Source: Asterias amurensis
Lineage: Eukaryota; Echinodermata; Asteroidea; Forcipulatida; Asteriidae
Length of the DNA: 64,000 nt
Assembly (NCBI RefSeq): GCF_032118995.1
Contig: NC_092668.1
Span: 11,883,501-11,947,500, forward strand
Direction of reading: 5' to 3'
The position numbers and the translations under genes were made by a program. Shown here piece after piece: positions 22,444 to 60,749 of this stretch (position 1 is the stretch's first letter; the number at the start of each line of letters is the position of its first letter). A model generated the notes under the pieces. The model saw only the letters and a program-made list of their open reading frames with translations, was not told the origin of the DNA and made no database searches.

Positions 22444-22513
22444 TTATCGCCTACATAATGTCACGTGATGTTCAAACGAGTCCCATTCACTTTCTGTAAA
22501 CATTTTCTGGCAC
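22444..22513 (-). CDS. TNIP-A last exon: NOA-type C2HC zinc finger
   Basis: Part of TNIP-A, listed separately because it is easily missed (23 codons). After the acceptor CTCCACAG|G it reads CQKMFTESEWDSFEHHVTLC then RR and stop. Joined to the preceding exon's VCPR it gives C-x2-C-x14-H-x3-C; an adjacent extra histidine (H690) could substitute. This matches the C-terminal ubiquitin-binding fingers of NEMO, optineurin and TNIP2 in layout. The phase-2 junction AG|G is shared with the paralogue at 34,678. Confidence 0.82.
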
Positions 22514-25500
22514 CTGTGGAGCAAAAAACAAAGAACGATAAACACCTTCATTGTAAAAAGTCTCGTGCTGTGTGGACATCGGCAATTTCCCCTTCAAACT
22601 AAACGAAACATCATCTTAAAGGCAGTGGACACTATTGGTAATTACTCAAAATAATTATCAGCATAAAACCTCAATTGGTAACGAGTAATGGGGGGAGGTT
22701 GATAGTATAAAACATTGTGAGAAACGGCTCCCTCTGAAGTAACCTACTTTTGGAGAAAGGAGTAATTTTCAACGAATTTGATTTCGAGACCTCAAGTTTA
22801 GAATTTGAGGTCACGAAATCAACCATCTGAAAGTACACAACTTCACAACTTCGTGTGACGAGGGTGTTTTTTCGTTCATAGTTATCTCGCATTTCCGACG
22901 ACCAATTGAGCTCAAATTTTCACAGGTTTGTTATTTCGATGTATATGTTGGTACACACCAAGTGAGAAGACTGGCCTTTGACAATTACCAATAGTCTTTA
23001 AAAAAAGAAATACCTCTTAAATGAATTCCACGTCATGATGTTGAAGCGAATGACATCTTACCTTGGGCATACGAATGGGTCTTGACGAGCTGGTACCCCG
23101 CTTCTACCCCTGACTGTATCTGATTCAGCATGGAGATTAATTTGTAACCAACGACCTTCCGGACCAGGCTGTAACATGATGACTTGTGAGCCAGTTGACA
23201 CCTTAGACGTTGCCTTGTGACTGGGTTTTACAACATCTTTATAAGGAGTCCTGCTCGACTTTACCTGTGAAGATGAAATGGTCAAACAATGTATTAATTG
23301 AAAGGCAGTGGACACTATTGGTAATTACTCAAATATTTATTAGCATAAAATTGTTCTTGGTGACGAGTAATGGGGAGAGGTTGATGGTATAAAACATTGT
23401 GAGAAACGGCTCCCTCTGAAGTGCCATAGTTTTCGAGAAAGAAGTAATTTTCCACGAATTTGATTTCGAGACCTCAGATTCAGAACTTGGGGTTTCGAAA
23501 TCAACCATCTAAACGCACACAACTTCGTGTGACAAGGGTGTTTTTTCTTTCATTTATTATCTCGCAACTTCGATAACCAATGGAGCTCAAATTTTCACAG
23601 GTTTGTTATTTTATGCATATGTTGAGATACACCAACTGTGAAGACTGGTCTTTGACAATTACCAATAGTGTCCACTGTCTTTAAGTCAGACGTCATTTAT
23701 TAACATTGAAGACTGAGCCCCTGTGGCGACTTTCGCTGTCATGTCCTTATAATTACCTTTAATTTGTTGTGATCCCTTCGTGATGGCTCTGCTTCTATTT
23801 TCTGATCTGAAGGCCTGTAAGCACCATGCTTTGGTGGTCCTTGTGTAGTCTTTATATCGTCTTTAATCTGAAATCAAAATATAAACATTAGAACTTCCTT
23901 TTCATGTATTTCCACACTCTAAAAACTAAAGAGTTGAACCCAACACTTGCATGAGTTCGGTGAGTGACTACACTTTGAAAGTGTTGGATCCAGCATTTTA
24001 TATGTTAAATCCAGCATTTTAAGGTATTCGGTCGACAATTAACTCGGTTTAACTTTTTAAAATCTGATTCAACAATTCAAAGGATTTTATTTTAGAAATG
24101 TTGAAATAACACTTAAATTGTTGAATTAACCTTTTTTGTGTTGGATCAAAAGTTTAAAATGCTAGTTTTAACAAACAAAACGCTGGCTTCAACACTTTCA
24201 AAGTGTAGTCACTCACCGAACTCATGCAACTGTTGGATTCAACTCTTTAGTTTTAAGAGTGCACTCTGCACAGCTGGATTTTCTCTCAGCAGCTCTCATG
24301 TTTAATTGATTTGATAGTTTGGGCACTTGTGTTGCATGCCAAGCGTTTTAAAACTCTGGGAAATTATCCCACCTTATTTTTTGTACCAATATTGGGAATA
24401 CAACAATGTTTTTAAGGCGAACAATACTGATTCACTTTAATGGGAGACTTTGAGACGCTGGGTGGCAGCAGGCTTACCAGGTAAATTTCCATTGTTTGCG
24501 TAGTTCTGAGCGTGCGCACATGACCGAAAACATTGGATGATTTTACCTGGTAAGTCTGCTGCCACCAAGCGTCCCAACAGTCTCCCATTGCTTGCACAAA
24601 CATAGACATTCCACTGGTTTACCTTTTCCATACGTTTTTATCAAAAATTTCTTAATTTTAATAGGGTTTACACTTTTATGTAATCTGAACTTGGTTTTAT
24701 TCTTTATATTGTGTTGTTTAGAGTTATACAAAATAATGAATTGAACCTATTGAGACATACCTGATCCTTTGTTTGTTTTTTCTGTTTGCTTATTTGATGA
24801 CGTAATGTTTGTATTTCGTTCCGGGCTTTCTGTCTGTCGGCTCGTTCCTTCTTAAAGTCCGACTCGTACATTTGATTCTGTGCAAAACGACAAAATCAGT
24901 TGTCAAAACTAAGATGTAGAAACTTGTACAACTCATAACTTTTTAAAGTAAACCATAAAAAAATAATTAAACATAATGGATCTGTATTATATAGGACCAG
25001 AATCTTGTATGTACCTGATGCCTCAATAATTCAACTTGCTCCATAATCTCTTGTTTGCTTAGACTCTTGTCAGTCACTTTGGGTACGTTTTCCTGCGGTT
25101 GCTTTCTCTTCTCCGTCACTGCCTGATGTTGGGAGGCAGTAAGACAATCATCTTGTTTTTCTTCATCTGCCGGTGCCTTGAGTGGCATTGGGGCGGTGGT
25201 AGGGAGGTTCTTGGGAGTTTTAATTGGCATTGGGGCGGTGCTAGGGAGATGCATGGGGGTCTTTCTTTCAACAATGTTTGGTTCTTGTTGCGAGTCATGG
25301 TTACGACCCGTCCTAGATGACTCCGTTGATCCTGTAGACTGCTTTAAAAACGTTGCTGCTGTCTCTGTAGATGGTGACTGATTAACATGTACATGCTGAT
25401 GGTACTTTTTCTCCAGTGCCTGATTGTTCATCGGAAAATAGGTTCATTGTCAGAACTTTATAAAAATAATAATAATAATAACAATAACTAGACATGATTG

Positions 25501-28500
25501 CATTCGTGCACAAATGCAGAGCTGTTTCGTTAATAAAATTTTCAAATTTCAGGGTTGAAAGGTATTGGGGCAATGATCATTGCAAAACAAGGGTGTCATT
25601 ATGACATCATCACAAGTCACGTGACGACATCTTAAAGGTGTTGTGTTTTAAATGTTTGAAAATTTATAACAAATCAGCCACAAGAGACCGTAGGTTTCTG
25701 TTTGCGGGATTGGGTAGGGATAATTTAGGTCTTCATTTTATTTATTTATTTTATTTTATTTATTTCTGTTTATCCTGGGAAATCCATTCAGTAAGAAAAA
25801 CTCACTGATCTCCCATGGATCCCAGCTAATAACAAACTACAGAAGTGAACTTAAGATAAAAATATTACAAATTATAATGCTTTCCCAAAACAATATACTC
25901 CCCATTGTTACCTGCTTAAGGCGCACGATCTCTTCCGTCATACTCAGATTCTGTTTGCTCAAAGTTCGATTAAGCATTTCAGATTTGTCATTCTTCTGTC
26001 GTTCTTCAGACACAGCTTTCTTCAGCCGTTGATTTTCGTCCTAACAAGAAGACAGAAAATGTTTGTTTTGTCATCATCATTAAAAGCATTATTGCTGAAT
26101 ATTATGTGATTAATTATAATTATTATAATACAGGTTTTCTCGGCCAATTTCGGAAAATGAGCAGCCAATTTAACCATCAAGCTATTCAATTTCGCGCGAA
26201 ATCGAATGCTACTGAAAAGGGTCATTCGATTTCGTTTTATGGTTAGTCAAATGTAATGTTGCGTCATTCGATTTAACAAAATAATCATTCAATTTAACAA
26301 TTCATCAAAGCAGCATTCAAATTCGCAGTCGCTTCTTGAGGCGTGTGTGTCTCGAAAAAGACTGACGATACACACTAAATTGAACATAGTGCTAAAGGAA
26401 TTTGACTCGACTCTAAACGAAATTGAATGGCCGAATTCTAAATTTGAAACGCAGTAACAACTGGAGAGTTAAAACAGCTTTAACTCGAACGCATGAAAAT
26501 GAAATTGGCTGCTCATTTTCCGAATTTGACCGAGAAAACCTATATTATGTGACATAATAATTATAATACATGTTAAATTTACATCGGGGATAAATAATAT
26601 TATTATTTTTTTTTTTACCCGCACACCGATGTGTGTTCACTTTATTCTCAGTACTTTCCCCGAGTTCTATGAAAAAAATATCACAAGAATATTACACGGG
26701 TGGGATTCGAACCCGTGTTGGTAGAGCACTGTCTCACCAACTAGACTACCGAGATTGCCCGGTAGCTAGAGGCAGTTCGAAACCTATGCTTTGGCAGCGG
26801 GTACAGCAACGATAGATGTTAAATTTGCATCGGAGATAAAGCCATAGTTAAAGAAACAATTGGTCCATTATTGTTAATCTGGTTTACCTCAATCAGTTCA
26901 ATACGTGTTTTGGCTGTGAGAAGAGTCTGCTCATAATGATTTGCCTTTATATCTGCCTCTTTAACAGCGTCATTAAGCTGGGTTTGAAGTCCTCCAATTG
27001 TCTCATTTTTTTTCGAGAGTTCAGCAATTACATCCGATTCCTTCTGTTTCAAATGATTCTTCCATTCGGTGTTGGCTTTCTTAAGCTGCAAAACAATATG
27101 AATTATCTGAGTTAAAAACCATTTTTTTATGCAGAGTTTGAAATGCCGGTGTATATCTTGGTTCAAAATAATTATAAGCGATAACAAAAGGTCTATGGAC
27201 AAACCGATTGAATTCACATGAGGGCGAGGTCTACTAGTTAGAAGTGACGTCCAAGTTCCACAAGAGAACATTACTATATACTATCTCGATAGTTTTAATC
27301 TATTAGAGCCATTATACACTTTCGGAAAAGAAACAAAAAAGTTGACAGATTTTCAAATAACTAACAGGGTTTACAGAAGGTAAAGGTAAAAGACTTCTCT
27401 TGAAATATTATTCAATGAAATGCTTTACTTTTTGAGAAAACATTGAAACAATTATCAATTCTCGACAACGAGAATTACGGATTTATATGTCACGACACGG
27501 CGAAACGTACGGGAACAAGGGTGGGTTTTCCCTTTATATTTTCTCCCGACTCCGATGACCGGTTGAGCCTAAATTTTCACAGGTTTGTTATTTTATATAT
27601 AAGTTGTGATACACGAAGTGTGGGCCTTTGGACAATACTGTTTACCGAAAGTGCCCAATGGCTTTAACTGCAAATGTACAAACCTCCTGTACTTGAATTT
27701 TAAGGCTGGATAACTCTTGTTGTTGCAGGTACGTACTAGCGAAGCTATTGGTAATAGTCGCCACTGATCTACAGTTTTCTGATACTATCTCTTTATGTGG
27801 TAGAACCTTGCCTAAAGTGTCTGGTGAAATCAGAGCGTCCATATAGGTCTCTGGATCCTCTGTGTTGACGGTGTCCACTTTGCACTCATTTGCTTCAAAT
27901 CCTGTTTGACTGATATCTCCATTTGAGTTATCCTTGGTAAGTTCGCTCTCTCTGTTTCTTACTTGGCGTTCCAATGGAGTTCTATCAAGAGGTTGAGTCA
28001 ACTTGGATTGATTTACCAATGTAGTCGTATAATATTCAGTTTGACCAACGCCCTCTAATTTTGAAAGTTCTCCAAGAAGTTCCATCTCTTCAATGGCACC
28101 CTCTGCATCATCTCGCTCACCAGCACCTCCATCCTCGTCTATTGGTGACGTCATTACATATTCCGCCTCTATGGCGCCCTCTATGTCATCTTCTGTATCG
28201 CCCAATGTTTCATCATCCAACGTTACTACATTCAACCACAAACATTAATATCAAATTAATTAAACTTTTTTTTAATTTACTATAATTAATCATATAAAAC
28301 AATGAAAAAAAAACACACAAAAAAACCGAAAAACCCCAAATGTTTGTTAGCCCGGGGTGGACAGAGATTCTGTGCCCCCCCCCCTTCCCAGTCTTGGAAT
28401 CAAGTCGGTATTTAAGCTCACACAAAATAATAATACTGCGCACATTTGCAGACAGCCTACGCTGCACATAAAATTTAGAACCTTTAAAGAAAAGGAACAA

Positions 28501-29413
28501 CACAAAATGTCTTATTTTACTGTGTACAAAGATTACATGGGTCGCACACAGGAAAATATATGATATGAAAATATAACTATATTTAATTATGTCTAAAAAT
28601 TAGAGGGTGGCGAATTCCCCTGGCTGACAGAAAACCCTAGGGGGCACAGGAGTCCCCTAGGAGTTCTGTCCCCCCCCCCTCCCCCGACCGTTGTGCGGGG
28701 GGACAGAATTCCCTGTGACACCGGCACAATATCATGGGTGCGTTCGTTTAGCTTCCCGGGTCGACCCCGGTGTGTGGCGTGTTTTTTTTTCCAGGACGAA
28801 CGTGTGCGGATAATTACCCACGTTCGTCCTGGAAAAAAAAACCCGCCACACACCGGGTCCGACCCAGGGAAGCTTAACGAACGCACCCAATGTTGCAATG
28901 ATTGTTACCTTGGGGTTTGTCTGTGGATGTCGCGTGTTTATCATCCGTGTCGTCAGGGTGCAAGTCTTTATCTGCTAGCAAACCACGCAGTCGGTGAACT
29001 TCCTCTTTTGTGTCTTTTAGAGCACGACCTAGCATTTCGTAGGAAAAAAAACATGTAATTGACTCAACTATATTTTTGCCACAAATATCACGAGTTTCAA
29101 CGTAGTTAATGATTTCAATGTGCAAGCTGTTTTGTTGCCATTTATTATCATACGTAACGGAGCTATATACGTGTGTTTTAGTTATGGTGTTATAAAAGAG
29201 ATATGTAGACTAACCGAGTACCCGAACGCCTCCCACACACCGTCTCAATCGTCTGTTCTCCACTCTGAGTGGTCGTAGGTCTTCCAGCTCATCCGCATAT
29301 GCATTGGCCATCCTTTCCCAATCAACTGACGTCATTGTGGGTAGTTGGTTAACTTTTATGGCGTCATCCTCAATACCGTTTGCTGCCGATGGCTTATTAT
29401 CAACTGTCTCCAT
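22444..29413 (-). CDS. TNIP/ABIN-family adaptor (TNIP-A), complete
   Basis: Predicted cytosolic ubiquitin-binding adaptor of the TNIP/ABIN family, which in vertebrates restrains NF-kB and cell-death signalling with A20. Ten coding exons: 29413-29215, 29028-28909, 28225-27684, 27085-26888, 26040-25912, 25419-25015, 24877-24761, 23867-23757, 23264-23062, 22513-22444; 697 aa, all phases consistent. Residues 1-66 are unfamiliar, 107-287 form an acidic low-complexity exon, and 288-396 are coiled coil starting LKKANTEWK; its LLTAKTRIELIE resembles the human TNIP1 stretch LLLAKSKIEMEE (recalled). Residues 397-531 are Pro/Ser/Thr-rich. UBAN motif at 532-570, SDFKKERADRQKARNEIQTL (D538 F539, E542 R543, D545 R546). 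The C-terminal C2HC finger uses C673, C676, H691 and C695. Exon 1 joins exon 2 through a weaker donor, CTCG|GTTAGT, chosen because it is the only one that keeps phase. Optineurin/NEMO are alternatives, but the helix before UBAN favours TNIP. Confidence 0.86.
22617..22999 (+). mobile_element. Family-A MITE
   Basis: Near-complete copy in the last intron of TNIP-A, 104 bp upstream of the zinc-finger exon. Confidence 0.9.
23300..23684 (+). mobile_element. Family-A MITE
   Basis: Full-length copy in TNIP-A, starting 36 bp upstream of exon 23264-23062 and so close to its acceptor and branch site. Confidence 0.9.
23913..24264. mobile_element. TIR MITE, ~72-bp ends
   Basis: Ends CACTCTAAAAACTAAAGAGT and reverse complement, with shared GAGTTCGGTGAGTGACTACA; TNIP-A intron between exons 24877-24761 and 23867-23757. 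Confidence 0.9.
24439..24592. mobile_element. Foldback element, arms ~50 bp
   Basis: AATGGGAGAC and GGTGGCAGCAGGCTTACCAG with inverted counterparts; same intron as above. Confidence 0.85.
26131..26542. mobile_element. TIR element, ends AGGTTTTCTCGG
   Basis: ~40-bp inverted ends (GGAAAATGAGCAGCCAATTT and reverse complement) around an ATTCGATTTCG-rich core; TNIP-A intron 4. Confidence 0.85.
26572..26840 (-). mobile_element. tRNA-derived SINE
   Basis: On the minus strand an A box (TAGTCTAGTTGGTGAGACA) and B box (GGTTCGAATCCC) in a tRNA-like head. Bounded by TGTTAAATTTACATCGGGGA on the left and a close variant on the right; a third copy of that end is at 43,482. TNIP-A intron 4. Confidence 0.72.
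27304..27667 (-). mobile_element. Family-C MITE
   Basis: Ends AAAGCCATT...CACTTTC; interior shares GGTTGAGC and TTTTCACAGGTTTGTTATT with family A. In TNIP-A intron 3; its right end stops 17 bp from exon 3's end (27,684). Confidence 0.82.
28735..28890. mobile_element. Foldback element, ends GGGTGCGTTCG
   Basis: ~70-bp inverted arms (CCAGGACGAACGTG and counterpart); TNIP-A intron 2, 19 bp from the exon-2 donor. Confidence 0.9.
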
Positions 29414-29482
29414 TCTGCTATTTCCGCAAATAAATACAAAACAATTAGTGACTGGACATTTAAAAGCCTACAACTTAAGGGT

Positions 29483-30060: not shown

Positions 30061-30065
30061 CAAGG

Positions 30066-30123: not shown

Positions 30124-30125
30124 CG

Positions 30126-37600: not shown

Positions 37601-40600
37601 CAGCTTCCGTCAATCCTCTCACCCAGAGATATTCTCACGATCAACAGCACAAAGCCTTTCAGCTAATCAGTGAGACCTAGAATTCGCTGCATATAACTTG
37701 CAGTAACTCACGCACGCTAGCGCAGATTGCACAACAATAACACTTGGGTAATAATCAGAGTAAAAGAACGTACCTGTTTCTTCCTTGAATGCTCGCTGCC
37801 GACTGACGATGCACGCCTGGTCCCAGAATTACCAGCGTGCTCCGCAAGCCAACGCATGCGCAGATCGTGCATAACCTCGCGCATGCTCATAACCAAATAA
37901 TTTATAACATACACCCAGCACTGTCCATCACAATAGTATAAAACATTATGAGAAACAGCTCCCTGTGAAGTAATGTAGTTTTCGAGAAAGAAGTAATATT
38001 CCACAAATTTGATTTCGACACCTCAAGTTTAGAATTTGAGGTCTCGAAAACAAGCATCAGAAAGCACACAACTTCGTGTGACAAGGGTGTTTTTTCTTTC
38101 ATTATAATCTCGCAACTTCGACGACCAATTGAGCTCAAATTTTCACAGGTTTGTTATTTTAGGCATATGTTGAGTTGAGATACACCAAGTGTGAAGACTA
38201 TACTTTGACAATTACCAATATTGTCCACTGTCTTTAATTGAATTGAATTGAATTGAATTAAGGCTATGAGTAGAAAGAACTACACTTACAGGTACGTCAT
38301 GTCTTCTGGTTGGTATGGCATATCCAGCTCTAGGGGGAGCAGACACCTGGTTGTATCTTGGTTGTGGAGCCTGAAAGAGAAGTAAAAGCAAATTGATTTC
38401 CTTCCTTTATTAAAGAGAAGGCCGTGATTGGTGTCATTTTGAGCATTAAAGCAGCTTTTGGATAGTATAAAGCATTCTGAAAAAACATTTCACTGCGAGA
38501 TAATGTAGTTATGCAAAAAGATCAGGTTTTTTGCCCACAATTTTCAATCTGAGACAAACATCTTTCAGATTGTGTCTTCCTATCAGAAATTATTCTATTT
38601 GTGTAGACAAATTCGCTCCGGACTTTTGGCAATATCTAAAAACTTGGTAACTATAGCATTGGAAAGCTGTTGATAGTATAAAACATTGTGGAAAACGACT
38701 CCCTCTGAAGTAACGTAGTTTTTGAGAAAGAGGTAATTTCTCACAACAATAATGAAAGACTTCTAGCTACAAGTCTTTTATTCCTATCTGAAAGCACACA
38801 AATTCGTCTAACAAGGGTGTTTTTTGTTACATCATTTTCTCGCACCTTCGATGACCGATTGAGCCCAAATTTTCACAGGCTTGTTATTTTTATGCTTATG
38901 TTGGATACACAAAGTGGGAAGACTGGTCTTTGACAATTACCAATAGTGTACCTTCCCTTTAAACAATCAGCAAAAGATGTCCCTAATTCAGCATTCCCTG
39001 TACCGAAGCACCAGAGCAACCTAACACACTCTGCACATGCTATTATTTTACTTTTATTATTATTATTAAAAAGATTTATATAGCGCCTTTCCAAAATAGA
39101 CCGATGCGCTTTACAATAAAAATTGAAATAAAATACAATAGAAAGCAAATTTATGCACACACATAAAAAGCACAAGAAACAGCACATTAAAGGGTCTATG
39201 TACCTTATGTAGGACAAAAAACATCAACAACAATGACCACAGATTCACACCAAACCCACACCGTCCGAAGACAGCGCTGCAGCTCCCGAGAAACAAGTAA
39301 AACAGTGATGGTGAGACGAAAACTATTTTAGCATGTCAAATTGTATTTTCATGACACCGCCCCACCCACCTCTCAAACAACTTTACACCCTGTCACATGG
39401 TTTCTATACACCATGACTACTGCAGGAATCTACAGATTATAGTTTCAATGGTAATAATACACTGTCGATAATAGTTTCGACAATAGGATTCAGTAATGTG
39501 AACATACGGATGTTGAGTAGGGTCTGTTCTGCTGATAATACAGACGTTGCTCCCCTTTCGTGTAGGTATCTTGCTGTTGAATCTGTCTTTTAGCTCGCTT
39601 CAGTTCTTTCTGCAAAGCATCTAGCTCTCCCATGACACGCTGACGATCTTGACGCTCATTGAAGAAATCCGATTGGAAAACCTCAGTCTATCAATCATAT
39701 AAAGCATTCTAGATTTAATACATCTTTCTCAAATAAACCCATAAAATAACTTGTGAATGACATTTTTGATATTTTGCCAAAGAGTTTATAACAAAAATAT
39801 TCAATCCGACAAAGTTGGGGCGGAAATTATTTCAAGGAAACATGTCCAGGAGGGATGGAAATAATCTCCAATTTAGTTGCTTTGACACTACAGGGTACTG
39901 TTTATGGTCCTTTTTTTAGATTAATAATAATAATGAATTTTCATATAAACTTTCTCACTGCCCAAAGGGCGTATCAAAGCTCTTCTGACTCAACTACCCC
40001 TGGTCACTGGGCCATATGTTTCATTCCTTAAACCATCTCAGCTCCTTGCCGAGTATACAGACGGTGCTGCGAGTTACCACACTCCAAGCTTATCATTCAG
40101 TTCACATAAACCATCTCTGCTTCCGTACTACAATTAGCGCTGTGAGGATGCCAACCTGATTGCTTGGATGACACTTGTGTCACTAAGCAAGACACTTAAC
40201 CATTGCTTTGCCTTCGAATGGGACAGAAAGCTGTTGGTCCAGTGTGTTGTGTAAACGCATGTTAAAGAATCCAGTGCACTTATCATAAAGAAAAGGAGTT
40301 CGCCCCGGTGTTTCTGGCCGGATTGGCAGCATATTGCGCCACAGCACCTTGTAAACCATTACATTGTGCTAAGGATTAGGTCTTATATCTCAAACTTCGT
40401 CCCACTCCTTGCAGGAATAATACCTGGCGCTTTGTATCCTTTGGCAAAAAGCGCGTTATAAATACGGTTATTATTATTATTATTTATTATTATTATTATT
40501 AGTTACCTGTTGTCTCAGTAGCTCCAACTCCTCCTTCAATTCACTCTCGGTCATCTCATTGACTCCCTTCACATGAATAGACGAAGAACTTGGTGTTGGA

Positions 40601-43600
40601 TCGATCTGTGCAGTATGATTTGCACTTTGTACGTTTCCAGACTGCTCTTTACCAATTCTCAGATTTTGAGAAAGTGCCTACAAAATAAGAGTAAGTAAAG
40701 TAAAAACGCTAATAATTCAACTGAGATACATTTGAAGATACATCTGACTGATAGAGAAATCTAAACACCAGAGGTCACGGCTCCAGCTTCTTCTAGACTT
40801 CCTACTGCAGCTCAAAAGTGTACCCTTCCTCCTTCCTCTTCTTCCCTAGCACCAGCTAAGAGTGGAACTCCTTACAGAAAGATCCTGGAGAGTTCACAAC
40901 ACTCAGAGCATTTAAGGCGGCATTGAGGAGGGAAGGATCTACCTAGCTTGCAGGCACTGTTTTTAACCGCTCTACACTGAATATATTTTCTGCTTTTGTT
41001 TGTCTGCGCACAAATTTGGACAGTGCGTGAACCAACCTCACAGTGCATTATTTTTAACCATGATGTCTGCACTTTACTTGGAAAAAAAAGCATAAAAGAA
41101 AAGAAAGAGGGGATGCCTGCCCTGAATCCGATGTTTACAGAGTGATCCTTGTACATATCTCTAGTTCGATACCTTTACATCAATTTGAAACTTTGACAAT
41201 CAATTCGCAAAAAAATATAGAACACCGTTCCTGTATAACACAATCAAGAGAGCTCCCTAAACACTTGGGGTAAGATAAGAAAGGGACACAGATTTGAGTG
41301 ATGAATGTTTACCTCGTTCAAACGTTGGATTTCTTTGTCCATTTCCTTGCGTTGTCCAGTAAGTGTACGTGCATAACGTTCCAGTTTGTCACATTTCTGT
41401 TTCAGAGCAACTACCTCTGCAACAGCTTCAGCTTTTTCTTTCTGCAAATATAAACCCGATTGAGTCAATCCTGACAGAGCAATAGATAACATTGCATCAA
41501 CAGTCTCAAAGCTACATGTACAGACATAATGAAGGTGTATAAGACTGGTGTTTTCTTTATTCAAAGATCAGTTGACACTCCTTGCTTACCTACACTAATT
41601 ACAGTTAAACAGTATTTGCAATATCTATAGTTGAATGTTAAAATGCATGCATTGGTATACAACTACTGTTAAAGTCTTTGGCATAGTGAGTGCTACCAGT
41701 AAAATGCTCTACAAATCTTTGTCAAGACAACAAATACATTAAAAGCTCTTATCTAAAATCATTTTAATAGGGCCTATATTGATAAATTTCCTGGTCTTAA
41801 ATGTATATAAATGTAGTCAAACTGTATGTACATTTCTGGCAGGCCCTTGTTTTGTGATTTTTGTTATCAAATGTTCACTATCTATTTTCTATTGTAAAGC
41901 TTTTTAACAATTATTTTTAATGTTTGTAAATTATGTCGCAATCCAGCGGTATGCTGCGATGGTAAACCATAAACCATAAACCATCCTTGATGAGCTCCTA
42001 GGGATTGTAACTGTAATAACTGTTATGATACTTTACCTCCACTTTGTCCAGTCCGATGTTAGTGAGTTGATCTCCATTGCTCTCCGCCATGGTCTTGGCA
42101 TCAGTAAGCTTCCTTTGAAGATCTTCTATTTGATTCTGCATCTGTGTCTTCATGTTGTGGTAGTGCTCGTCCCATGAGTGGTTGACCTTCACAATCTGCA
42201 TAGAACAATGTAGAACAATGCAATTCATTTAACATTAGTGGCTCGGATGGCTGGGTTGGTTTGTGGGTAAAGCGCTTGCCTCTCACCAAGGTGACCCCGG
42301 GTCGATTCCCCGGTCGGGGCCATATGTGAGTTGAGTTGTGCGTTGGTTCTCTGCTGTGCCACGAGGGTTTTCCAGACTATCCGGTTTTCCTCCCTCAGGA
42401 AAAAATCAAACACTTTCGATCTTGGCTGTGCTCCGTGGTCATAATGGGTTGATGTGGCTGGCAGCTGAATGTGCCCTTACATGCCTGCTTCTTTAACACG
42501 TTGTAGCCGCGTCCTTCTCAATTCAGCCCTAGCTGCGAGTAAGGACGATTAGCCCCCCAAATTATTATTATTATTAGTAATAGTCATTATATGGTGTTAC
42601 CGCACACCTTTCTATATAGTAGTCATTACATGGTGTTATCGCAGACCCCTCTATATCATTTAACCTTAACCCTTTAACACGCAACCGCCCTGCGAGTTAC
42701 ACCGCATACTGTCTGCTTGCACCCATGAAGGTTTACACGGTGTACTTTGAGTTATAAAGATGCCATCAAAATGCAGCAAATAGCCGTACATAGAGCGTGA
42801 TCTCAAGATGACAAAAGTCTAAAAATAGCACTTGGTCAACATAAGAAAAAATAACGTATAATTCAAAGGTCAGAAGTCCTTTCACAATCAACAATGCACG
42901 CAGGTGTAGGTGCGTTTTCTCTGTTCGGAGCTGCCCGTTTTGTCTGTTGGCAGCGGACGGTATTGGGAACACATGTATACCAAGTACCACACGCGCATTT
43001 ACACAGTAATGGCCATCTCCCACTTGTTTTGCAACTTACTGGTCTTTTTACAGACAGATTTGAAAGGATTTAACATAAGGTTTTAGGTACAGAAGTTAAC
43101 TGTGGGTGATAGAGGCATTCATTTTCATTTCTTAAGGTATGATGTGATTATTTTCAATCACCTTTGTAGCTTTGTTTACCTGTCAGACGACGGTACAGTT
43201 TAGAAAACTTGTGTATACAACTTTCCACACATAATCTGCACTTCATTGCTATGGACCTATTATTGATCATTGATTTGATAAAATGAAGTATTATACCTCT
43301 TCCATCTGTTTCTTCAATGACTGGTACTTGCGCTGAAGCATGAAATGAACCTCTTCACTGACTCCAGTGGTTGCTGCTGTCACAGGTTGCTGTATGGCCG
43401 TTTTCTACCATGATAGAAACAATGATGTCAGTGCAATTAATTAATATCAAAATATCATTACAAGATTGACAAATAATATATGTTAAATTTGCAGCCATCG
43501 GGGATAAAGAATATTAATGTGTGTGTTACCACTGTAAATTGACAAATGAAACATTTTAATTGTAATGAAAGAAAAGAGCTACGAATCGACAAATTTTCTG

Positions 43601-46600
43601 ACTCCATTTGACAACCATAGTACACCATGGCCAAATATCAGTAAACCTGAATTCAATTGGTTACTAAATTCTACAAAAACTGTGAACAGGCAGTGAAGTC
43701 AATGACTGTACCATTGATTAAGTACAGTCTCCATTTTACCAATTAAACCATGTAAAACCAGTCTAGAATACAACATCCAATGCCAACAACCTTAAATAAA
43801 AGCGTTGAAGCTTTGCAAGATATAGAAAATTAAAAATAAAAGTGTTTACGGAAAGAGCGCACCAGTACTTAAAGGGAAGGTACACCTTTGGTAATTGTCA
43901 AAGACCAGTCTTCTCACTTGGTGTATCCCATTATATGCATAAAATAACAAGCCTGTGAAAATTTGGGCTCAATCGGTAATCGAAGTTGCGAGAAAATGAT
44001 GAAAGAAAAAACACCCATGTTGGTCGAATTTGTGTTCTTTCAAATTGGAATAAAAGACTTCTAGCTAGAAGTCTTTTATTATTTTAGTGAGAAATTACCT
44101 CTTTCTCAAAAACTACATTACTTCAGAGGGAGTCGTTTCCCACAATGTTTTATACTATAAAGAGCTCTTCAATCCTTGTTACCAAGACAGTTTTTAAGGT
44201 AATATTTGTTTTGAGTAATTACCAAACGTGTACCTTCCCTTTAAAAATGAGATGGTGAACTCTGTCTGTCATAAGCCGTGTTCACACTGGGCACCTTTGG
44301 CTCGGTTAAACTAACCGCGCAGCGTGGGTTAAGTACCTGTCAGGAAAACTACCCAGGCTGTTCGCACTGGACTTAAAATGGGTGAGTTATCCATTGGCTC
44401 GGTCAGCTTGCCCAAATTAAGACCAGTGCGAACACGGCTACAGGTAGACTGCTGCATTCCAACTGGACTATGGGCCACAGGTGCTGGAAGCATTGGGTGT
44501 CATGGACGAGTGGTTTAGACCATAAAGTTCAAGTTCTGGTGGTTTATTAAAGTGCTCCAGTGATAGGTTGACTGACACCATTGGTCCTTTGTACAGTGGT
44601 TCTCCCTTAAGACCTGGCGATTGCGGAAAAAAACGCAGGGCATGCAGGTTTTCTTTTGTCTTACATTTGGAACGAGGCGTGCCAGTGACATAACTTATCC
44701 ATGCTCCCTTTATAGTCATAGATGTGTGATGGGTTAGAATCCCGGTCATGACACTTGTGTCCTTGAGCAAGACACTTCCCTACAATCGGTTCTCTTCACC
44801 TAGGGGTAGAAGTGAGAGTTTGATACTTTGTTTGAAACAAAAGACTATTTACAAGCCTACCTGTTTCTGAGCCTCTTTGATTTCTCTTGCTTCCTTGGTA
44901 GTCACAAAGTCAAACCCTCCACACTGTTCCTCTTCCTTAGCTTTTCGCATCTCTGAAATCTCCTCCTCCAACTGCCTCATCTCTTCCCTGATAAATCAAT
45001 CAAAATCATCAACAATCAACAAAATGTAATTTAGTTACATGAAAATTGTATACCACAACATCAGGTTAAAATGTGGGTAAGGATATATTGACTGGTGCAC
45101 AAAGGTGGGATTGAGGCATTATTAGGACATATTGACTGGTACACCACAGTGGGGTGGAGGCAGTACAAGGAACTGTAACACACCTCTTGCTTGTTCTGTA
45201 TTCTGGTTGGCTGAAACATGGTCACGTGGGTTGAACTAATAGTCTAGTGATCGCGCGCGCGTGCTTTTGGGGAAGAGTGCCCGCCGGGAACTAGTCTTTG
45301 AAAACAGCGCCCTATCTTGACTTGAACTACAAAACTTCCTTTCTTTTCATGATTTCTGTTTTTATCTCACATTTAAGACAGAGGTGTGTTATAAAACACA
45401 TATTGACTGGAATAATTTGAAAACTAGTGTAGGTCTATTCCCCTTCGGGCCTGTGAGTGACCACAAGAGGGGCCTATTTCTCGAGGCCGGGTTACTCATT
45501 GTCCCTCGAGGGAACAGATAGATTTCACAAAAAGTTCTTATCTCGAGTTAGGACGAGTAACTCGTCTTAACTTAGGATTAATCTTAAGGTCTGCATGCTA
45601 CAGTGCAGGGTTGGGACTCGTCCCAAGTCCTAAGATTAGTCTTAAGTTAGGAAGAGTTTTGTGAAATCGACGGCTGGTAGAGTGGAGGCAGGCATTAGTA
45701 GGAAAACTAGATTACCTCAACTGGTTGATCTCCTGTTTCCTTTCCTCAGCTTCACTCTTCAGATTTTGGTTTTCTTCTTCAAACACTGTCCGCAGAGTCT
45801 AGTCAAATACAAATACTGAACTATTAAGTAAAACTTAACTTCAAACAAAATCTGTAGATTAGTTGTGAATTTCAAAACAATCGAGGTTCAAGGTTCACTA
45901 AATTTCCACACCCCTCCCCCTCTCTTGTTTAACAGTGTAACGAGCTAGGAAGTTCAAGTGTAAGAAATGAAAACGGTAGAAGCAAATCAGGAAAAATTCT
46001 GAATGTAAATTTGAGTTTTTAAAGAAAAACAGAATGGCACTGGAGGGAAATTATTCCATGACATCTAACACCCCATGGGACCCCAACTGAATAGGACAAA
46101 ATATACCCTTAATTTAACAGTATTTTATTTGAAAAGGGGATCTGTAAACAATGCAGGTATGTTAATATCTGCAAAATTACTATGTACATGCAGCAGAAAT
46201 AGCTCCCCGTGCAGTGGACCCTTCCCATGAAATATGCTAATCACTCTCACGCATGCGTACAGACCCTGTTGGTTGGCAAACGCCATAGAGTTGTGCACTA
46301 TTGAAGATAAAATCCAATCTGTAAAATGACCTCAGGCAGGAAAGAAATGTACAATGCCACCAATATTTTAAGAGATTCAAGAGATTATTTAACAAAATAG
46401 AATCCACAAGGCATGGGTGACTAGCAGGACCAAGCGTCAAAGGCAAGACTATTGCTACATGCCAAGTCCTGACATCTAAAAAAGTAGTTTCACCTTGTGT
46501 AAAAGTTGGGACTATTGTTTGCTATGTTCAGTCCACTCTAATTGAAGCACTACTTTTTTGGTAGTGAAGTTCACTTGTTGCCTAGGCTGAGAGATGTACA

Positions 46601-49600
46601 TTTCACATCAGGGAATTCCCCTTTGTGTGTAACCTAAAAGGCGTGTGTCACCTCCAATCATTCATGTATGAGACGAACTTTAAGATCCCCAGCACGTCTT
46701 GAGCATCTTAAAGGAACACGTTGCCTTGGATCGGACGAGTTGGTCTATAAAAAAACACTTGTAACCGTTTGTTATAAAATGAATATGGTTGGAAAGATAA
46801 TTTAACAGTAGAATACAATGATCCACACAAGTTTGCCTCGAAATTGCGTGGTTTTCCTTTTACTGTGCAAACTAACACGGTCGGCCATTTATGGGAGTCA
46901 AAAGTTTGACTCCCATAAATGGCCGACCGTGTCAGCCGACGAGGTAAAAGGAAAACCGTGCAATTTCAAGGCATGTTTGTGTGGATCATTGTATTCTACT
47001 TTTACAGCATCTTTCTACCCATATGCATATTATAACAAACGCTTTTCAAAGACCAACTCAACCGATCCAAGGCAACGTGTTCCTATAAAGGATTTTAATG
47101 CATCACTGTTACATTCCACTTTTAGGTTACACACAAAGGGGAATTCCCTGATGTGAAATGTACATTCGATGTGGTTAATTTAACAAAATATTTACTGTAT
47201 AACGATGCATCCGATGTTAATTTGTTAACTCTTTGCGTATGAGTTCAAAGTGTTCTGCGTTTGATCAAACCTTTACTGATTGAGTTATCCAGCAACTTTA
47301 GGGTTTTTATTTTATCTTCCAATGAATATCAAGTTTACTCTTCCAAATGGTTTTCCCACTTTAATCTGGCCAATTCCTCACAATGTTTTATACTATATGA
47401 ACAGCTTTTCATTGCCCATTAACAAGTACAATGTTTATGCTATCAATTATTTTGAGTAATTAACAATAGTGTCCAGCAGTATTAAAGACAGTGGACACTA
47501 TTGGTAACTGTCAAAAACCAGTCTTCTCACTTGGTGTATCTCATCATATACTTAAATAACAAACCTGTGAAAATTTGAGCTCAATCAGTCATCGAAGTTG
47601 CGAGATAATAATGCAAGAAAAAACACCCTTGTCACACAATGTTGTCAGCGTTTAGATGGTTGATTTCGAGACCTCAAGTTCTAAATCTGAGGTCTCGAAA
47701 TCAAATTCGTGGAAAATTACTTCTTTCTCGAAAACTACGGCACTTCAGAGGGAGCCGTTTCTCACAATGTTTTATACCATCAACCTCTCCCTATTACTCA
47801 TCACCAAGTAAGGTTTGATGCTAATAATTATTTTGAGTAATTACCAATAGTGTCCACTGCCTTTAACAGTATTAAGAAAAAAACAAGTTGAGCCTACCGT
47901 TTGCATTTTAACTGTGCGTTCTAGTCGAATGATCTTGGGTACCAGTTTTGATAAGTGAGCAGTAATCTCAGATGTTCTCTCATCTTCAACCAAACTCTGA
48001 AGAGCGTGCTCGACGTTACGAATCTGCATAGAAATCTCTGGACGATCGGCTTTGATCTGGTAGAATGGAAACAAATATTAAAAGTATCCACTGAATAAAT
48101 TACAGGATTCATTACTGGATGAAGAAACCATAGTAACTAACATACATAGCTATTTGGTACTATTTCAAAAGGTATTTGGTTAATATCAAAGCTCAGGGTG
48201 TGTTGTAGAATAAGATGAACTCACAAAAAGATCGCTGTATAAAAAAAAACACCTTAAAGGAACACGTTGCCTTGGATCGGTCGAGTTGGTCTTTGAAAAG
48301 CGTTTGTAACCGTTTGTTATAAAATGCATATGGGTAGAAAGATGTTGTAAAAGTAGAATACAATGATCTACACAAACATGCCTCGAAATTGCGTGGTTTT
48401 CCTTTTACCTTGTCGACTAACACGTCGGCCATTTATGGGGGTCAAAATGTTGACTCCCATAAATGGCCGACCATGTTAGTTCGCACAGTAGAAGGATAAC
48501 CACGCAATTTCGAGGCAAACTTGTGTGGATCATTGTATTCTACTTTTAAAACATCTTTCCAACCATATGCATTTTATAAAAAACGGTTACAAACGCTTTT
48601 GTTTTGACCAACTCGTCCGATCCAAGGCAACGTGTTCCTTTAACATCATGAATAAAACAAAACTTTCATTCACTTACAGTAGCAAACATAGAAAACATAC
48701 TGATAATCAAATTTGCCTTAAAGGGACACATTACCTTGGATCGGACCAGTTGGTCTATAAAAAGCATTTGTAATCGGTTTTTTTATAAAATGCATGGTTG
48801 GAAAGATGTTTTAAAAGTATAACACAATCCACACAAATTTGCCTCGAAATTGCATGGTTTTCCATTTACTGTGCAAACTAACACGGTCCGCAAATGCGAC
48901 CAAACCGACAGTCACGTATTATTGCTTTTTCCTAGTATGTCAATAGCGACGACATCAACATCGGCTAAAAACCTTGGTGTTACCCTGGACTCTACTCTTT
49001 AACATGCATTCTCAAATCCAAAAAGTGTAAAGAGCTGCGGTAACGCCATCTTTTGCTAACACGTGACGGACAATCCTCCAACCAAATGGCAAGGATCTGC
49101 TTGGGTGTTACATAATAAGACGATGTGACCTCTGACGTCACACGAAAACCATAACATGATTCGCGCGCATACCGCCGGGCAAAACCTTTGTGTTTTGGCA
49201 GCCAGCTAGAAAGTGTATGCAATCTTGCCATGACTACGTGTCGTTTCGCCCGGCGAAATATGACGTACATGTATACAGTGTTTTTTCAACAGAGGGCGGT
49301 TTGAATGTAAACATAGGTCACATCGTCTACACTTACTTGGTGATCGGGCAAAACCTTGGTGTTTTGGCAGCCAGCTAGAAAGTGTATGCAATCTTGCCAT
49401 GACTACGTGTCTTTGCGCCTGGCGAAATATGACGTATACAGTGTTTTTTCAACAGAGGGCGGTTTGAATGTAAACATAGGTCACAGCGTCTATACTTACT
49501 TGGTGATCATGTGATGGTCTATCACCAATAAGATATCCAGGAATTACATGCTCAAAGTCTTCAGATATGGCGCCAATGGAAGAGGATAGTTCATGTCCCT

Positions 49601-50301
49601 TGCCTATATCATTGTTGTCACCTGTTTAATAAAATAAAACATTTTCTCTACACACCTATTGCACACTGCGTCTCCTGTCTGCCATTTTGGGTCAAAATGT
49701 GCCGCACAAAAGGATAGTATCCCACGTGTAAACGCACCAATGTGCATTAACACGTACTGTACCATCCTTTTGAGCAATGTGCGATCACGTTGTGCAATGG
49801 GTCTATATTCATCTTTGTTAACTTTTCCTCCAAAAAAGACACAAAGCAAAGATTTGACAATAAGCTTTGATTCATTGTGAGAGTGCTTTAAAACACAATT
49901 CACTCTAGGATTGTTATACAGTTACCACAGTGGATCCTGAGTGTGACCATAACAGATGAGGAATGGGAATTCTCTGGTTATAATGGGAACATCGCTGGGA
50001 AGTTAAAGCTCTCATATATTTAAAAACATAAGAATTATGGAAAAGAATATCAACACTGCAGTCAATTGAAAAATAGAACGCTTTGGAAAAAGTTAGCATT
50101 TCGAAACACCTCCTCTTCAATTCATTCCTTTTTTTTGCTAATCTAGTTGCCCTCCAGTCATGTTCTTTTCTGTTTTTTTTTAAATATTTATTGTGTGCTT
50201 TTTGCTTGAATAGTTATTGTATTCGTTATTATTTTGATTGGTTTGTTGTGTTACGTTTAACTTTTGCTGTGCTTTTTTATGTACTTTGTTGAGGTCAAAT
50301 A

Positions 50302-50335
<34 letters not shown>

Positions 50336-51743
50336 CAGGCCTGTATGCTTCGTTTTTGAAAGGGTAAGGGCACCGAGGCATTTTTTTCTGGGTAAAGGGC
50401 ACCCTATGATGAAATTTCAAATTTGTACTGGAGCATTTCAAGGGCACCAAGGCAGTGACCAGGGGACACGGAGGCAATCGCCTTCGTTGCCTCCGTGAAG
50501 TATTAAGTCTGATAACACCCACATGCCACTCTTACAAGCACTATGAAGAGGAGGACTGGCAAATAACATCATCCCTGTGATTTATTGTGATAGGCCTCAT
50601 GTTGATGCATTTTCCAGTAGCATTCTTATATGATTGAGTTAAGATTTAAAAGTGTCATCTATGAGCGGTTAGTTCATATCAGATAATAAATTATATTACA
50701 GGGCAATTTTTCAACTGGACTGGCTCTCTAAAATTGGATTGCATCATTTGAAGGTCGCCATTGCTGCAATCAGATTTTCATGTCATGGGAGCGCATAACA
50801 GGCAAATAAGGTTTAAAGCCATTGGACACTTTCCGTAAACAGAATGGTCCGAAGGCCCACAATTCGTGTATCACAACTGGTATAAAAAATAACAAACCTG
50901 TGAAAATTTAAGCTCAATCGGTCATCAGAGTCGGGAGAAAATAACAGGGAAAACCCACCCTTGTTTCTGCACGTTTCGCCGTGTCATGATGTGTTTAAAA
51001 TAAATCCGTAATTCTCTACAACGAGAATTGATAATTGCCTTAATGTTTTCTCGAAAAGTAAAGCATTCATAAAATAATATTTCAAGAGAAGTCTTTCATC
51101 ATTATAATTGCCTTAATGTTTTCTCGAAAAGTAAAGCATTCATAAAATAATATTTCAAGAGAAGTCTTTCATCATTACCTTCCGTAAACCCTGTAAGTTG
51201 TTTGTTAATTTGTGAACTTTTCTTTTTTGCTGTGCCGAAAGTGTATAATGGCTTTAACACAACAGTCACAACAGAGAAAAACAATACCCCAAAATGCCAG
51301 TAATTAAGTTCTTGTTTTAAAGTTCTCCAAACACTGTTTCATCTAGAGTATTTTAAAAAGTAACATTAGCAGCAATTCAGTTCAGCAAATGGTCAGGCTA
51401 TGTTTTATGTGCCAGGCCTATAGACGATGTGACCTCTGACGTCACACGAAAACCATAACATGATTCGCGCGCATACCTTTGTGTTTTGGCAGCCAGCTTG
51501 AAAGTGTACGCAATCTTACTATGACTACGCAACTCAGTGCCCGGCGAAACATGACGTGTTTAGTGTTTTGTCAACAGAGGGCGGTTTGAATGTAAACATA
51601 GGTCACATCGTCTATAGATCCAAAAGATGCAAATGTGGCCCTCTTTGCTCAGTTTTCACCAATGTCTTACCTAAGGGTTGTCCTGGTGGACCTTTGAATG
51701 AGGATGCCATGATGACACCCACAGGTTTTTCTGCACTTGCCAT
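34612..51743 (-). CDS. TNIP/ABIN-family adaptor (TNIP-B), complete
   Basis: Second TNIP/ABIN homologue, predicted cytosolic ubiquitin-binding NF-kB regulator. Thirteen coding exons: 51743-51671, 49621-49500, 48056-47898, 45798-45716, 44987-44861, 43404-43297, 42195-42037, 41441-41313, 40677-40507, 39687-39508, 38370-38290, 36666-36512, 34678-34612; 1,614 nt, 537 aa, every junction GT-AG and in phase. Residues 66-224 form coiled coil. VNHSWDEHYHNMK (228-240) resembles human TNIP1 VNKQWDQHFRSMK, and GQRKEMDKEIQRLNE resembles TNIP1 RQREYQEKEIQRLNK (both recalled). UBAN at 378-437: SDFFNERQDRQRVMGELDAL (D384 F385, E388 R389, D391 R392). Then a Pro/Tyr-rich link and a C2HC finger C514, C517, H530, C534. 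The first coding exon begins in the leader after TTTCAACAG|A (51,810), with a short uORF (MNMY, stop) before the ATG. Paralogue of TNIP-A. Confidence 0.86.
34718..35100 (+). mobile_element. Family-A MITE
   Basis: Full-length copy in the last TNIP-B intron, starting 40 bp upstream of the zinc-finger exon. Confidence 0.9.
35155..35312. mobile_element. Foldback MITE, GTCGATTTCACAAA ends
   Basis: Arms with ACTTAAGACTAATCTTAGGA. An inverted near-full copy is at 45,525-45,678; fragments at 6,512-6,545 and 18,328-18,430. Confidence 0.87.
35313..36074. other. TNIP-B last intron, GC-richer stretch
   Basis: CACGTACG- and GCGC-containing segment 35,500-35,720 with no exon; remainder unremarkable. Confidence 0.4.
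36075..36170 (+). repeat. tRNA-like SINE head
   Basis: CTAGCTCAGTGATCTAGAGG resembles an A box and GGGTCCAAATCCAACCC a B box; not a foldable complete tRNA. Confidence 0.5.
36786..36890. mobile_element. AGAACTAGAGGGCGC element, partial
   Basis: Left half of the 34,376-34,593 family, in a TNIP-B intron. Confidence 0.8.
36889..36990. repeat. Two-copy ~66-bp tandem repeat
   Basis: AATGTGGTTTAATTGTCAAC at 36,889 and AATGTGGTTTGAGTGTCAAC at 36,953, followed by CAGTATCCA in each. Confidence 0.75.
37200..37345. repeat. ~34-bp tandem repeat, 4 copies
   Basis: ACACCGCAGGTAAACCACAA then CACAGCAGTCA, repeated with small changes. Confidence 0.8.
37774..37890 (-). other. Possible alternative exon of TNIP-B (39 codons)
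   Basis: An ATG at 37,890 opens 39 codons (MSMREVMHDLRMRWLAEHAG onward, basic end SRKKQ) ending at a good donor CAG|GTACGT in phase 0, the phase needed to join the exon at 36,666. It lies between TNIP-B exons 38370-38290 and 36666-36512, beside a family-A MITE. No good acceptor precedes it, so it would be an alternative first exon or chance. Confidence 0.2.
37932..38237 (+). mobile_element. Family-A MITE, left end lost
   Basis: Interior and right terminus; right end is followed by an AATTG short tandem repeat. It stops 53 bp from TNIP-B exon 38370-38290. Confidence 0.85.
38620..38962 (+). mobile_element. Family-B MITE, left end lost
   Basis: Right end TGTACCTTCCCTTTAA intact; TNIP-B intron between exons 39687-39508 and 38370-38290. 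Confidence 0.82.
39050..39125 (-). repeat. SINE/LINE 3' end, reverse orientation
   Basis: ATTATTATTAAAAAGATTTA then GCGCCTTTCCAAAATAGACC, the reverse complement of a GCGCTTTAT-type tail. Confidence 0.5.
40105..40500 (+). mobile_element. SINE/LINE-type element with (ATT)n tail
   Basis: Contains GACACTTGTGTCACTAAGCA, GCGCGTTATAAATACGG and an ATT tail ending at 40,500; it abuts the donor of TNIP-B exon 40677-40507. A related block GACACTTGTGTCCTTGAGCA is at 44,750. Confidence 0.75.
42240..42565 (+). mobile_element. tRNA-derived SINE with (ATT)n tail
   Basis: A-box-like GTTTGTGGGTAAAGCGC, B box GGGTCGATTCCCC, a central block CCGGTTTTCCTCCCTCAGGA, and an ATTATTATTATTA tail at 42,558. Opposite orientation to TNIP-B, 45 bp upstream of exon 42195-42037. 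Confidence 0.85.
43869..44245 (-). mobile_element. Family-B MITE
   Basis: Full-length copy in opposite orientation, in a TNIP-B intron. Confidence 0.88.
44680..44815 (+). repeat. SINE fragment
   Basis: B-box-like GGGTTAGAATCCCGG then CACTTGTGTCCTTGAGCAAG, matching part of 40,105-40,500. Confidence 0.6.
45525..45678. mobile_element. Foldback MITE, inverted copy of 35,155-35,312
   Basis: Ends GATTTCACAAAAAGTTCTTA and TTGTGAAATCGACGGCTG; TNIP-B intron, 38 bp from exon 45798-45716. Confidence 0.87.
46592..47166. mobile_element. Outer inverted-repeat element carrying a nested foldback
   Basis: About 50-bp inverted ends (ATGTACATTTCACATCAGGG and its reverse complement), each with a GGGGAATTCCC. 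Confidence 0.8.
46708..47090. mobile_element. GGAACACGTTGCC foldback element, full, nested
   Basis: Lies inside a larger inverted-repeat element, 46,592-47,166. Confidence 0.92.
47370..47866 (-). mobile_element. Family-A MITE plus preceding fragment
   Basis: Full copy 47,482-47,866; a degraded right-end fragment lies at 47,370-47,481. The right end is 32 bp from the donor side of TNIP-B exon 48056-47898. Confidence 0.87.
48254..48643. mobile_element. GGAACACGTTGCC foldback element, full
   Basis: Both arms present; TNIP-B intron between exons 49621-49500 and 48056-47898. Confidence 0.92.
48719..48890. mobile_element. GGAACACGTTGCC foldback element, half copy
   Basis: One diverged arm ending at ACTAACACGGTC. 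Confidence 0.82.
49112..49508. repeat. MITE plus ~169-bp tandem duplication copying the TNIP-B exon donor
   Basis: A foldback (GACGATGTGACCTCTGACGT to GGTCACATCGTCTA) is followed by a duplication: the unit 49,177-49,345 repeats at 49,346-49,508. Both units end CTTACTTGGTGATC, whose reverse complement is the end of exon 49621-49500 plus its donor (CACCAA|GTAAGT). Confidence 0.88.
49655..49805. repeat. Imperfect foldback around ACCCATTGCACAAC
   Basis: Left CTATTGCACACTGCG and right CGTTGTGCAATGGG arms with internal CAAAAGGATAGTA/CCATCCTTTTGA pair; 34 bp upstream of exon 49621-49500. Confidence 0.65.
50337..50515. mobile_element. CAGGCCTG-ended repeat, inverted copy
   Basis: Same block as 9,700-9,903 in reverse, next to an (AAT)n tail at 50,301-50,332. 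Confidence 0.8.
50812..51257 (+). mobile_element. Family-C MITE with internal 73-bp tandem duplication
   Basis: Ends AAAGCCATTGGACACTTTCC. An internal block (51,035-51,107) is repeated exactly at 51,108-51,178. First intron of TNIP-B coding region. Confidence 0.85.
51420..51617. mobile_element. Foldback MITE, ends TAGACGATGTGACC
   Basis: ~197 bp with inverted ends; same family as at 49,112; TNIP-B first coding intron, 54 bp from the donor at 51,671. Confidence 0.87.
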
Positions 51744-60745: not shown

Positions 60746-60749
60746 TTTT

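Follow-up and report, generated by a model that had tools for sequence, protein, structure and literature searches.

We describe two neighbouring minus-strand genes, here called A and B, in a 64,000-nucleotide stretch of the genome of the echinoderm Asterias amurensis (the window; C21:11883501-11947500, where C21 is contig NC_092668.1). In our reading, to which we give a probability of roughly 0.8, an old tandem duplication of one TNIP1/TNIP3-type (ABIN-1/3) gene gave rise to A and B, and their products are putative A20/ubiquitin adaptors that would hold down NF-kB; the duplication as such and the adaptor role are what we infer. Human TNIP1 (ABIN-1) reads ubiquitin chains and in doing so dampens inflammation. 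A and B are new members of this known TNIP/ABIN family and not a new kind of system. With them, an echinoderm has a ubiquitin adaptor of TNIP1/3 type, flanked at a distance by annexin and GPX genes and accompanied by an A20-like candidate partner.

Architecture of genes A and B

Each gene encodes, in this order, a coil, an AHD1-like RLxxAL motif, a linker, a UBAN and a C2HC finger that is split at the matching codon, in agreement with the initial annotation, which had recognized two same-strand neighbours with coil, UBAN and finger. The UBAN sequences are YESDFKKERADR in A and FQSDFFNERQDR in B, and DFxxERxDR is kept in both. Gene models were built from open frames, splice-site scores and phase fit on genomic DNA alone. 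Gene A has 10 exons running from 29413 down to 22444 (2094 nt, 697 aa), and gene B has 12 exons running from 51743 down to 34612 (1506 nt, 501 aa). Neither has an inner stop, and all introns of both have GT and AG. The exon lengths previously proposed (198, 129, 405, 117, 111, 203 and 70 nt in A; 159, 129, 171, 180, 81, 155 and 67 nt in B; phases 0,0,0,0,0,2 in each) were all reproduced with GT/AG boundaries, including the 129-nt (43-codon) exon present in both models as A exon 5 and B exon 7; that series starts at exon 4 of A and exon 6 of B, so the first three exons of A and the first five of B are additions. The exons follow in window positions, with the basis of each in brackets and a slash within a motif marking the exon end.

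29215..29413, minus strand, gene A exon 1, ATG and first half of the N-motif ENRRLRRCVGGVRVLG (open frame; alignment to the human TNIP1 N-terminus)
28909..29028, minus strand, gene A exon 2, 120 nt, second half of the N-motif (splice sites, phase, alignment to the TNIP1 N-terminus)
27684..28225, minus strand, gene A exon 3, 542 nt (180 codons and 2 nt), acidic (frame, splice sites)
26888..27085, minus strand, gene A exon 4, 198 nt, coil with NTEW (splice model; tblastn with TNIP1, 7.6e-6)
25912..26040, minus strand, gene A exon 5, 129 nt, ending inside AHD1 at RLKQ/AL (splice model)
25015..25419, minus strand, gene A exon 6, 405 nt, linker (splice model, frame)
24761..24877, minus strand, gene A exon 7, 117 nt, UBAN (CC2-LZ genome scan, PDB sequence search, splice model)
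23757..23867, minus strand, gene A exon 8, 111 nt (splice model)
23062..23264, minus strand, gene A exon 9, 203 nt, finger start, CPR (splice model)
22444..22513, minus strand, gene A exon 10, 70 nt, remainder of C2HC finger and stop (frame, finger profile)
51671..51743, minus strand, gene B exon 1, ATG, 73 nt, provisional (frame and donor only)
49500..49621, minus strand, gene B exon 2, 122 nt, provisional (splice score, phase fit)
47898..48056, minus strand, gene B exon 3, 159 nt, middle coil (splice model, TNIP1 coil alignment)
45716..45798, minus strand, gene B exon 4, 83 nt, middle coil (splice model, TNIP1 coil alignment)
44861..44987, minus strand, gene B exon 5, 127 nt, coil (splice model, TNIP1 coil alignment)
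42037..42195, minus strand, gene B exon 6, 159 nt, coil with VNHSWDEHY (splice model; tblastn with TNIP1, 3e-5)
41313..41441, minus strand, gene B exon 7, 129 nt, ending inside AHD1 at RLNE/AL (tblastn with TNIP1, 3.4e-4, 41% identity)
40507..40677, minus strand, gene B exon 8, 171 nt, linker (splice model)
39508..39687, minus strand, gene B exon 9, 180 nt, UBAN (CC2-LZ genome scan, PDB sequence search, frame)
38290..38370, minus strand, gene B exon 10, 81 nt (splice model)
36512..36666, minus strand, gene B exon 11, 155 nt, finger start, CPR (splice model)
34612..34678, minus strand, gene B exon 12, 67 nt, remainder of C2HC finger and stop (frame, finger profile)

The stop of B lies 5.2 kb ahead of the ATG of A. 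A single gene made of A and B is ruled out, each having a separate start, AHD1, UBAN and finger. Three places in the B model are less firm: exons 1 and 2 have splice signals and frame or phase as their sole support, exon 7 has a competing acceptor whose 158-nt form scores higher than the 129-nt form, and exon 9 has a weak acceptor with a poor pyrimidine tract. Introns of both genes carry a dispersed repeat (EVSKSN.WKITSFSKT...FYTI), for example at window positions 23329-23508, 34732-35022, 37902-38153 and 47656-47811.

Relationship to TNIP1 and other UBAN proteins

Profile searches cover the whole 491.5-Mb genome (23 contigs). The scan with Pfam CC2-LZ (PF16516; cut-off 35.3 bits) was run exon by exon at E up to 10, and its match count is a lower bound. 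Five exons are listed, two of them in the window, on one strand and 14.8 kb apart:

C2:24305033, exon of the C2 gene, 39.7 bits
C8:1117775, exon of the C8 pair, 34.9 bits
C21:11923074, exon of gene B, 27.9 bits
C21:11908267, exon of gene A, 26.5 bits
C8:1102701, exon of the C8 pair, 17.3 bits

With at least five matches genome-wide, of which two fall in the window in the same orientation, the pair is not a chance occurrence.

The human comparison sequences were checked in part against solved chains. BLASTP was run on eight sequences, six human ones together with A and B against each other. TNIP1 is the best match of B (2.3e-21, 201 aa, 30% identity), with TNIP3 second (8.6e-13). It is also the best match of A, in three collinear pieces (3.4e-9, 3.1e-8, 0.002), followed by B (1.0e-6) and TNIP2 (1.6e-6). 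A PDB sequence search with the UBAN exon of B returned TNIP1 first (0.0064), then TNIP2 (0.82) and NEMO (6.3), with OPTN unlisted; the UBAN exon of A returned TNIP2 (0.0072), TNIP1 (0.016), OPTN (0.097) and NEMO (8.1). Upstream of the UBAN, AHD1 aligns with TNIP1 in both genes, B (KEIQRLNEAL) being nearer than A to human TNIP1 (KEIQRLNKAL). The Asp preceding Phe in DFxxERxDR is D472 in TNIP1 numbering, and this Asp-Phe is kept in A and B. In the ten-row alignment, the coil after NxxW is one residue longer in A, B, TNIP1 and TNIP3 than in TNIP2 and in C8a and C8b, the genes of the C8 pair, and the first four also have a linker between AHD1 and UBAN. The TNIP/ABIN type first proposed for A and B is thus supported by TNIP1 as best match for both, by annexin and GPX linkage, and by the AHD1-linker-UBAN order.

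Human TNIP1 resembles A and B in the NxxW coil, AHD1 (EIxRLxxAL), linker, UBAN (DFxxERxDR) and the annexin and GPX linkage; its N-terminal ENxxL..LG motif is matched in A and its middle coil in B. It differs in having both N-terminal pieces, whereas A and B each detectably show one, and in being without a C2HC finger in the sequence used here, which was partly checked, whereas A and B have the finger. TNIP3 (ABIN-3) has the AHD1-linker-UBAN order of A and B and differs in that the sequence used here shows no finger. As TNIP3 is sister to TNIP1, neither A nor B is established as its one-to-one partner. TNIP2 (ABIN-2) is like A and B in its UBAN with ERADR and its C-terminal C2HC finger, and differs by an NxxWQRY coil, one residue shorter, and no linker. 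Optineurin and NEMO share the UBAN core and finger and differ by ER[AQ]AR in place of ERxDR. The UBAN helix of B matches that of CEP55 at 46.5% over 43 aa (3.7e-6), with whole B far closer to TNIP1. We rejected B as CEP55, because only the UBAN helix is CEP55-like and the remainder matches TNIP1; Pfam EABR has no match in the A or B proteins.

Trees and alternative readings

Tree 1 (ten rows, MAFFT auto, mixture model), which carries a long-branch warning, groups TNIP2+C8a+C8b (94/95) and OPTN+NEMO+C2 (100/99). Tree 2 (L-INS-i, LG+G4) again recovers TNIP2+C8a+C8b (90/91) and OPTN+NEMO+C2 (100/99). Tree 3, with CEP55 added, joins A+B+TNIP1+TNIP3 (86/89.7), TNIP1+TNIP3 (98/99) and OPTN+NEMO+C2 (100/99), and separates the C8 pair. 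The alignment is short and diverged, and no approximately unbiased (AU) test falls below 0.05 in any tree. For tree 2, p-AU is 0.283 for A+B+TNIP1+TNIP3, 0.164 for B with TNIP2+C8 and 0.0538 for the four TNIP-like genes of the genome together. For tree 3 it is 0.0906 for B+CEP55, 0.132 for C8a+C8b+TNIP2+CEP55, 0.0694 for C8b+CEP55 and 0.0797 for C8a+TNIP2. The optineurin placement that the initial annotation had thought worth checking is unsupported for either gene: neither A nor B joins OPTN in any of the three trees and their UBAN residues differ from it, although joining A (0.267) or B (0.378) to OPTN/NEMO/C2 in tree 2 is not rejected by the AU tests, which here work on a short alignment.

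Several results weigh against a tandem duplication of one TNIP1/3-type gene. A+B is a clade in none of the three trees; tree 1 does not resolve A, B, TNIP1 and TNIP3, and tree 2 puts A with TNIP2+C8a+C8b (61/81). Identity between A and B is 22-26% over aligned parts. On the proteins, Pfam CC2-LZ scores 39.5 bits for A, above the cut-off, and 29.5 bits for B, under it. Finger spacing is unequal, C-x14-H in A as in TNIP2 versus C-x12-H in B as in OPTN/NEMO, and Pfam zf_C2H2_10 gave no match at E 0.5 on the A or B protein. Finally, the three introns common to A and B may be ancestral to TNIP1/3.

There are two further accounts of the pair to be weighed here. First, B alone could be the TNIP1/3 ortholog, with A from a TNIP2-like lineage adjoining B through an ancient ABIN tandem array. 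The rank of TNIP2 ahead of TNIP1 for the UBAN exon of A, the TNIP2 spacing of its finger, which resembles that of C8a (CPRC...HHVTxC), and its place in tree 2 all suit this account. We regard it as unlikely, since over full length A matches TNIP1 best, the linker that separates its AHD1 from its UBAN is long, and it has three introns in common with B, none of them in the C8a/C8b models. The tree with CEP55 also returns A to TNIP1/3, though A with TNIP2+CEP55+C8 pair is not rejected (p-AU 0.116). Second, A or B could be a decaying copy and not a working ubiquitin adaptor, for which one may cite the low similarity, the weak acceptor and provisional first exons of B, and its CC2-LZ score. This is very improbable: neither the 10 exons of A nor the 12 of B contain a stop, the UBAN core and AHD1 are conserved, and B is the closer of the two to TNIP1.

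Shared introns and the case for local duplication

The claim of local duplication is supported by adjacent position and by three introns common to A and B, absent from the C8-pair models, while the trees leave A+B neither shown nor rejected (p-AU 0.321 in tree 2, 0.32 in tree 3). Two of the introns, in mid-coil and at RLxx/AL, were compared across A, B, C8a and C8b. They occur in A and B, whereas the C8a/C8b models cover the corresponding region with a single exon (480 or 498 nt); a 360-nt alternative of the C8a exon has a better donor and a lower total score. The third, the finger intron (CPR/C, phase 2), is present in A and B, with the fingers of C8a, C8b and C2 unsplit.

It is a real possibility, and one compatible with tandem duplication, that the matched exon series was inherited from the TNIP1/3 ancestor or a wider superfamily and alone is no evidence of local duplication. 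A phase-0 junction directly before the UBAN exon is indeed found in the models of all five CC2-LZ genes and must therefore be old. The three introns just described are the counterweight, being confined to A and B among the genes compared.

N-terminal halves

The initial annotation held that the N-terminal halves of A and B had diverged or been rebuilt. This is right only in part. The acidic 180-codon exon of A matches neither coil: 460/1000 and 849/1000 shuffles are as good as its alignments with the middle coils of TNIP1 and of B. A exons 1-2 align with the TNIP1 N-terminus, and B exons 3-5 with the TNIP1 middle coil. In A, ENRRLRRCVGGVRVLGRALKDTKEEVHRLR aligns gap-free with TNIP1 ENSRLKEKMQGIKMLGELLEESQMEATRLR (score 62, shuffle mean 21.4, 0/1000 as high), and C8a also has the N-motif (56 against a shuffle mean of 19.5, 0/1000). 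B exons 3-5 score 70 against the TNIP1 middle coil (shuffle mean 35.9, 0/1000 as high). Shuffle tests (1000 each) keep composition and ignore heptads, so that the B alignment is the weaker of the two N-terminal results.

The first 66 residues of B gave no match to the N-motif of TNIP1 or of A (587/1000 and 387/1000 shuffles as good), and N-motif profiles run over the window and 20 kb past its right end found A's own exons only and none for B. A profile of TNIP1 and C8a alone recovers the two motif halves of A at E 1.5 and 2.2; with recovery this weak, a diverged split copy in B would escape detection. Since A and B each have one TNIP1 piece, part of their difference looks like the retention of different ancestral TNIP1 pieces. 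The two genes are a natural pair for asking which N-terminal part of ABIN-1 does what.

C2HC fingers

The fingers, CPRCQKMFTESEWDSFEHHVTLC in A and CPRCERGFDDDSSFHIHISEC in B, both fit C-x2-C-x12/14-H-x3-C at the C-terminus. In a search with a custom profile from seven relatives, A (E 0.003) and B (0.081) are the top two untrained of 6079 targets, at ranks 3 and 4 behind the two C8 training fingers; A's unspliced exon is next (0.09), and the best other target is at 1.7. In the zf_C2H2_10 genome scan, one of the seven listed matches is above cut-off, 0.7 kb from the C2 exon, and the split fingers of the window are not among the seven. The NOA-type finger in A and B suggests that the finger predates vertebrates and was lost in TNIP1/3, and the pair is of note both for finger retention and for a possible N-terminal split. 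Searches of one open-access literature collection returned nothing on an invertebrate TNIP1/TNIP2 zinc finger or amphioxus ABIN2, and for an echinoderm TNFAIP3-interacting protein gave, among the matches listed, just sea-cucumber peptides and tilapia. In two broader searches, the 12 entries listed of 274 do not mention echinoderms and the 12 listed of 2,286 do not mention TNIP1; with listings capped in this way, the searches do not prove that such work is absent.

Tentatively, these observations can be joined in one scenario, in which a finger-bearing TNIP1/3 ancestor underwent tandem duplication among echinoderms and the copies divided its N-terminal functions, A keeping the ENxxL..LG motif and losing the middle coil and B the reverse. 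This would have given two specialized A20/ubiquitin adaptors, with the finger later lost on the vertebrate TNIP1/TNIP3 branch.

Proposed function

ABIN-1 is described as a non-enzymatic adaptor whose AHD1 serves A20 interaction and whose UBAN binds polyubiquitin, linear chains preferred, and D472N in TNIP1 attenuates ubiquitin binding (PMC11940065). Mouse D485N does likewise, and NEMO, optineurin, ABIN1-3 and CEP55 are reviewed as a single ubiquitin-chain receptor family (PMC11854354). By analogy, the A and B products would each form a coiled-coil dimer, with a UBAN helix predicted to bind linear or K63 ubiquitin chains and an AHD1 motif that would dock A20. The C-terminal C2HC finger may add a second ubiquitin contact. 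A20 would in this way be recruited to receptor complexes that carry ubiquitin, and NF-kB signalling would be restrained. On their sequences, A and B are likely two A20/ubiquitin adaptors restraining NF-kB; one hypothesis is that they differ in partners via their N-termini.

Relatives and linkage in the genome

A second tandem pair, the C8 pair, lies on the minus strand at C8:1101800-1123705, with UBAN exons 15 kb apart. C8a and C8b have NxxWQRY coils and unsplit C2HC fingers, and in both Pfam EABR is above cut-off and CC2-LZ under it. BLASTP matches C8a best with TNIP2 (6.6e-12), gene B close behind (1.3e-11), and C8b best with TNIP2 (2.2e-10), CEP55 next (3.7e-6). Judged by these features the C8 pair is TNIP2-like. 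FAM193, the neighbour of TNIP2 in human, was looked for beside the pair and found on C8 but 13.6 Mb away, too far for microsynteny. The C2 gene reads DFDAERAAREK and has the finger CPKCQDEFPDIDTLQIHMLDC, both of OPTN/NEMO type, in keeping with its place in the trees.

The annexin and GPX neighbourhood of A and B echoes human GPX3-TNIP1-ANXA6. Five annexin exons, 83 kb from gene A, occupy C21:11814393-11823323, and four more lie at C21:11305148-11309033; other annexin matches are on C1, C7, C10 and C20 (34 in total). Two GPX genes lie at C21:11208985-11211151, about 0.7 Mb from A and B, with other matches on C3 and C13 (7 in total). In human, the psoriasis single-nucleotide polymorphism rs17728338 is separated by 2 kb from ANXA6 and by 8 kb from TNIP1 (PMC4289690), and GPX3/TNIP1 is treated as a single risk locus (PMC8767698).

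A candidate partner is the A20-like gene at C14:1500778-1504117, with two zf-A20 matches above cut-off, 2 kb apart. The first is inside a 694-aa frame (C14:1500778-1502860), the start of which we take to be the end of an A20-type OTU domain. More A20-finger-like Cys patterns were seen by eye in this gene.

Elsewhere in the window, a 64-bp tandem unit is repeated 54 times at 2120-5601 (alternatively 192 bp, 18 times), and a 30-bp unit 29 times at 59875-60746, where long frames of up to 372 aa are open on both strands. COX1 is carried on contig C23. In a gap-free alignment with a solved COX1 (5j4z), its AAA codons all coincide with Asn (8 of 8), and of its 6 AGA codons two, codons 21 and 88, coincide with Ser, some of the others not; the mitochondrial code thus resembles that of echinoderms or flatworms. 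Two further COX1 matches on a nuclear contig (C5:658874-660214 and C5:675294-676634) are probably copies of mitochondrial DNA.

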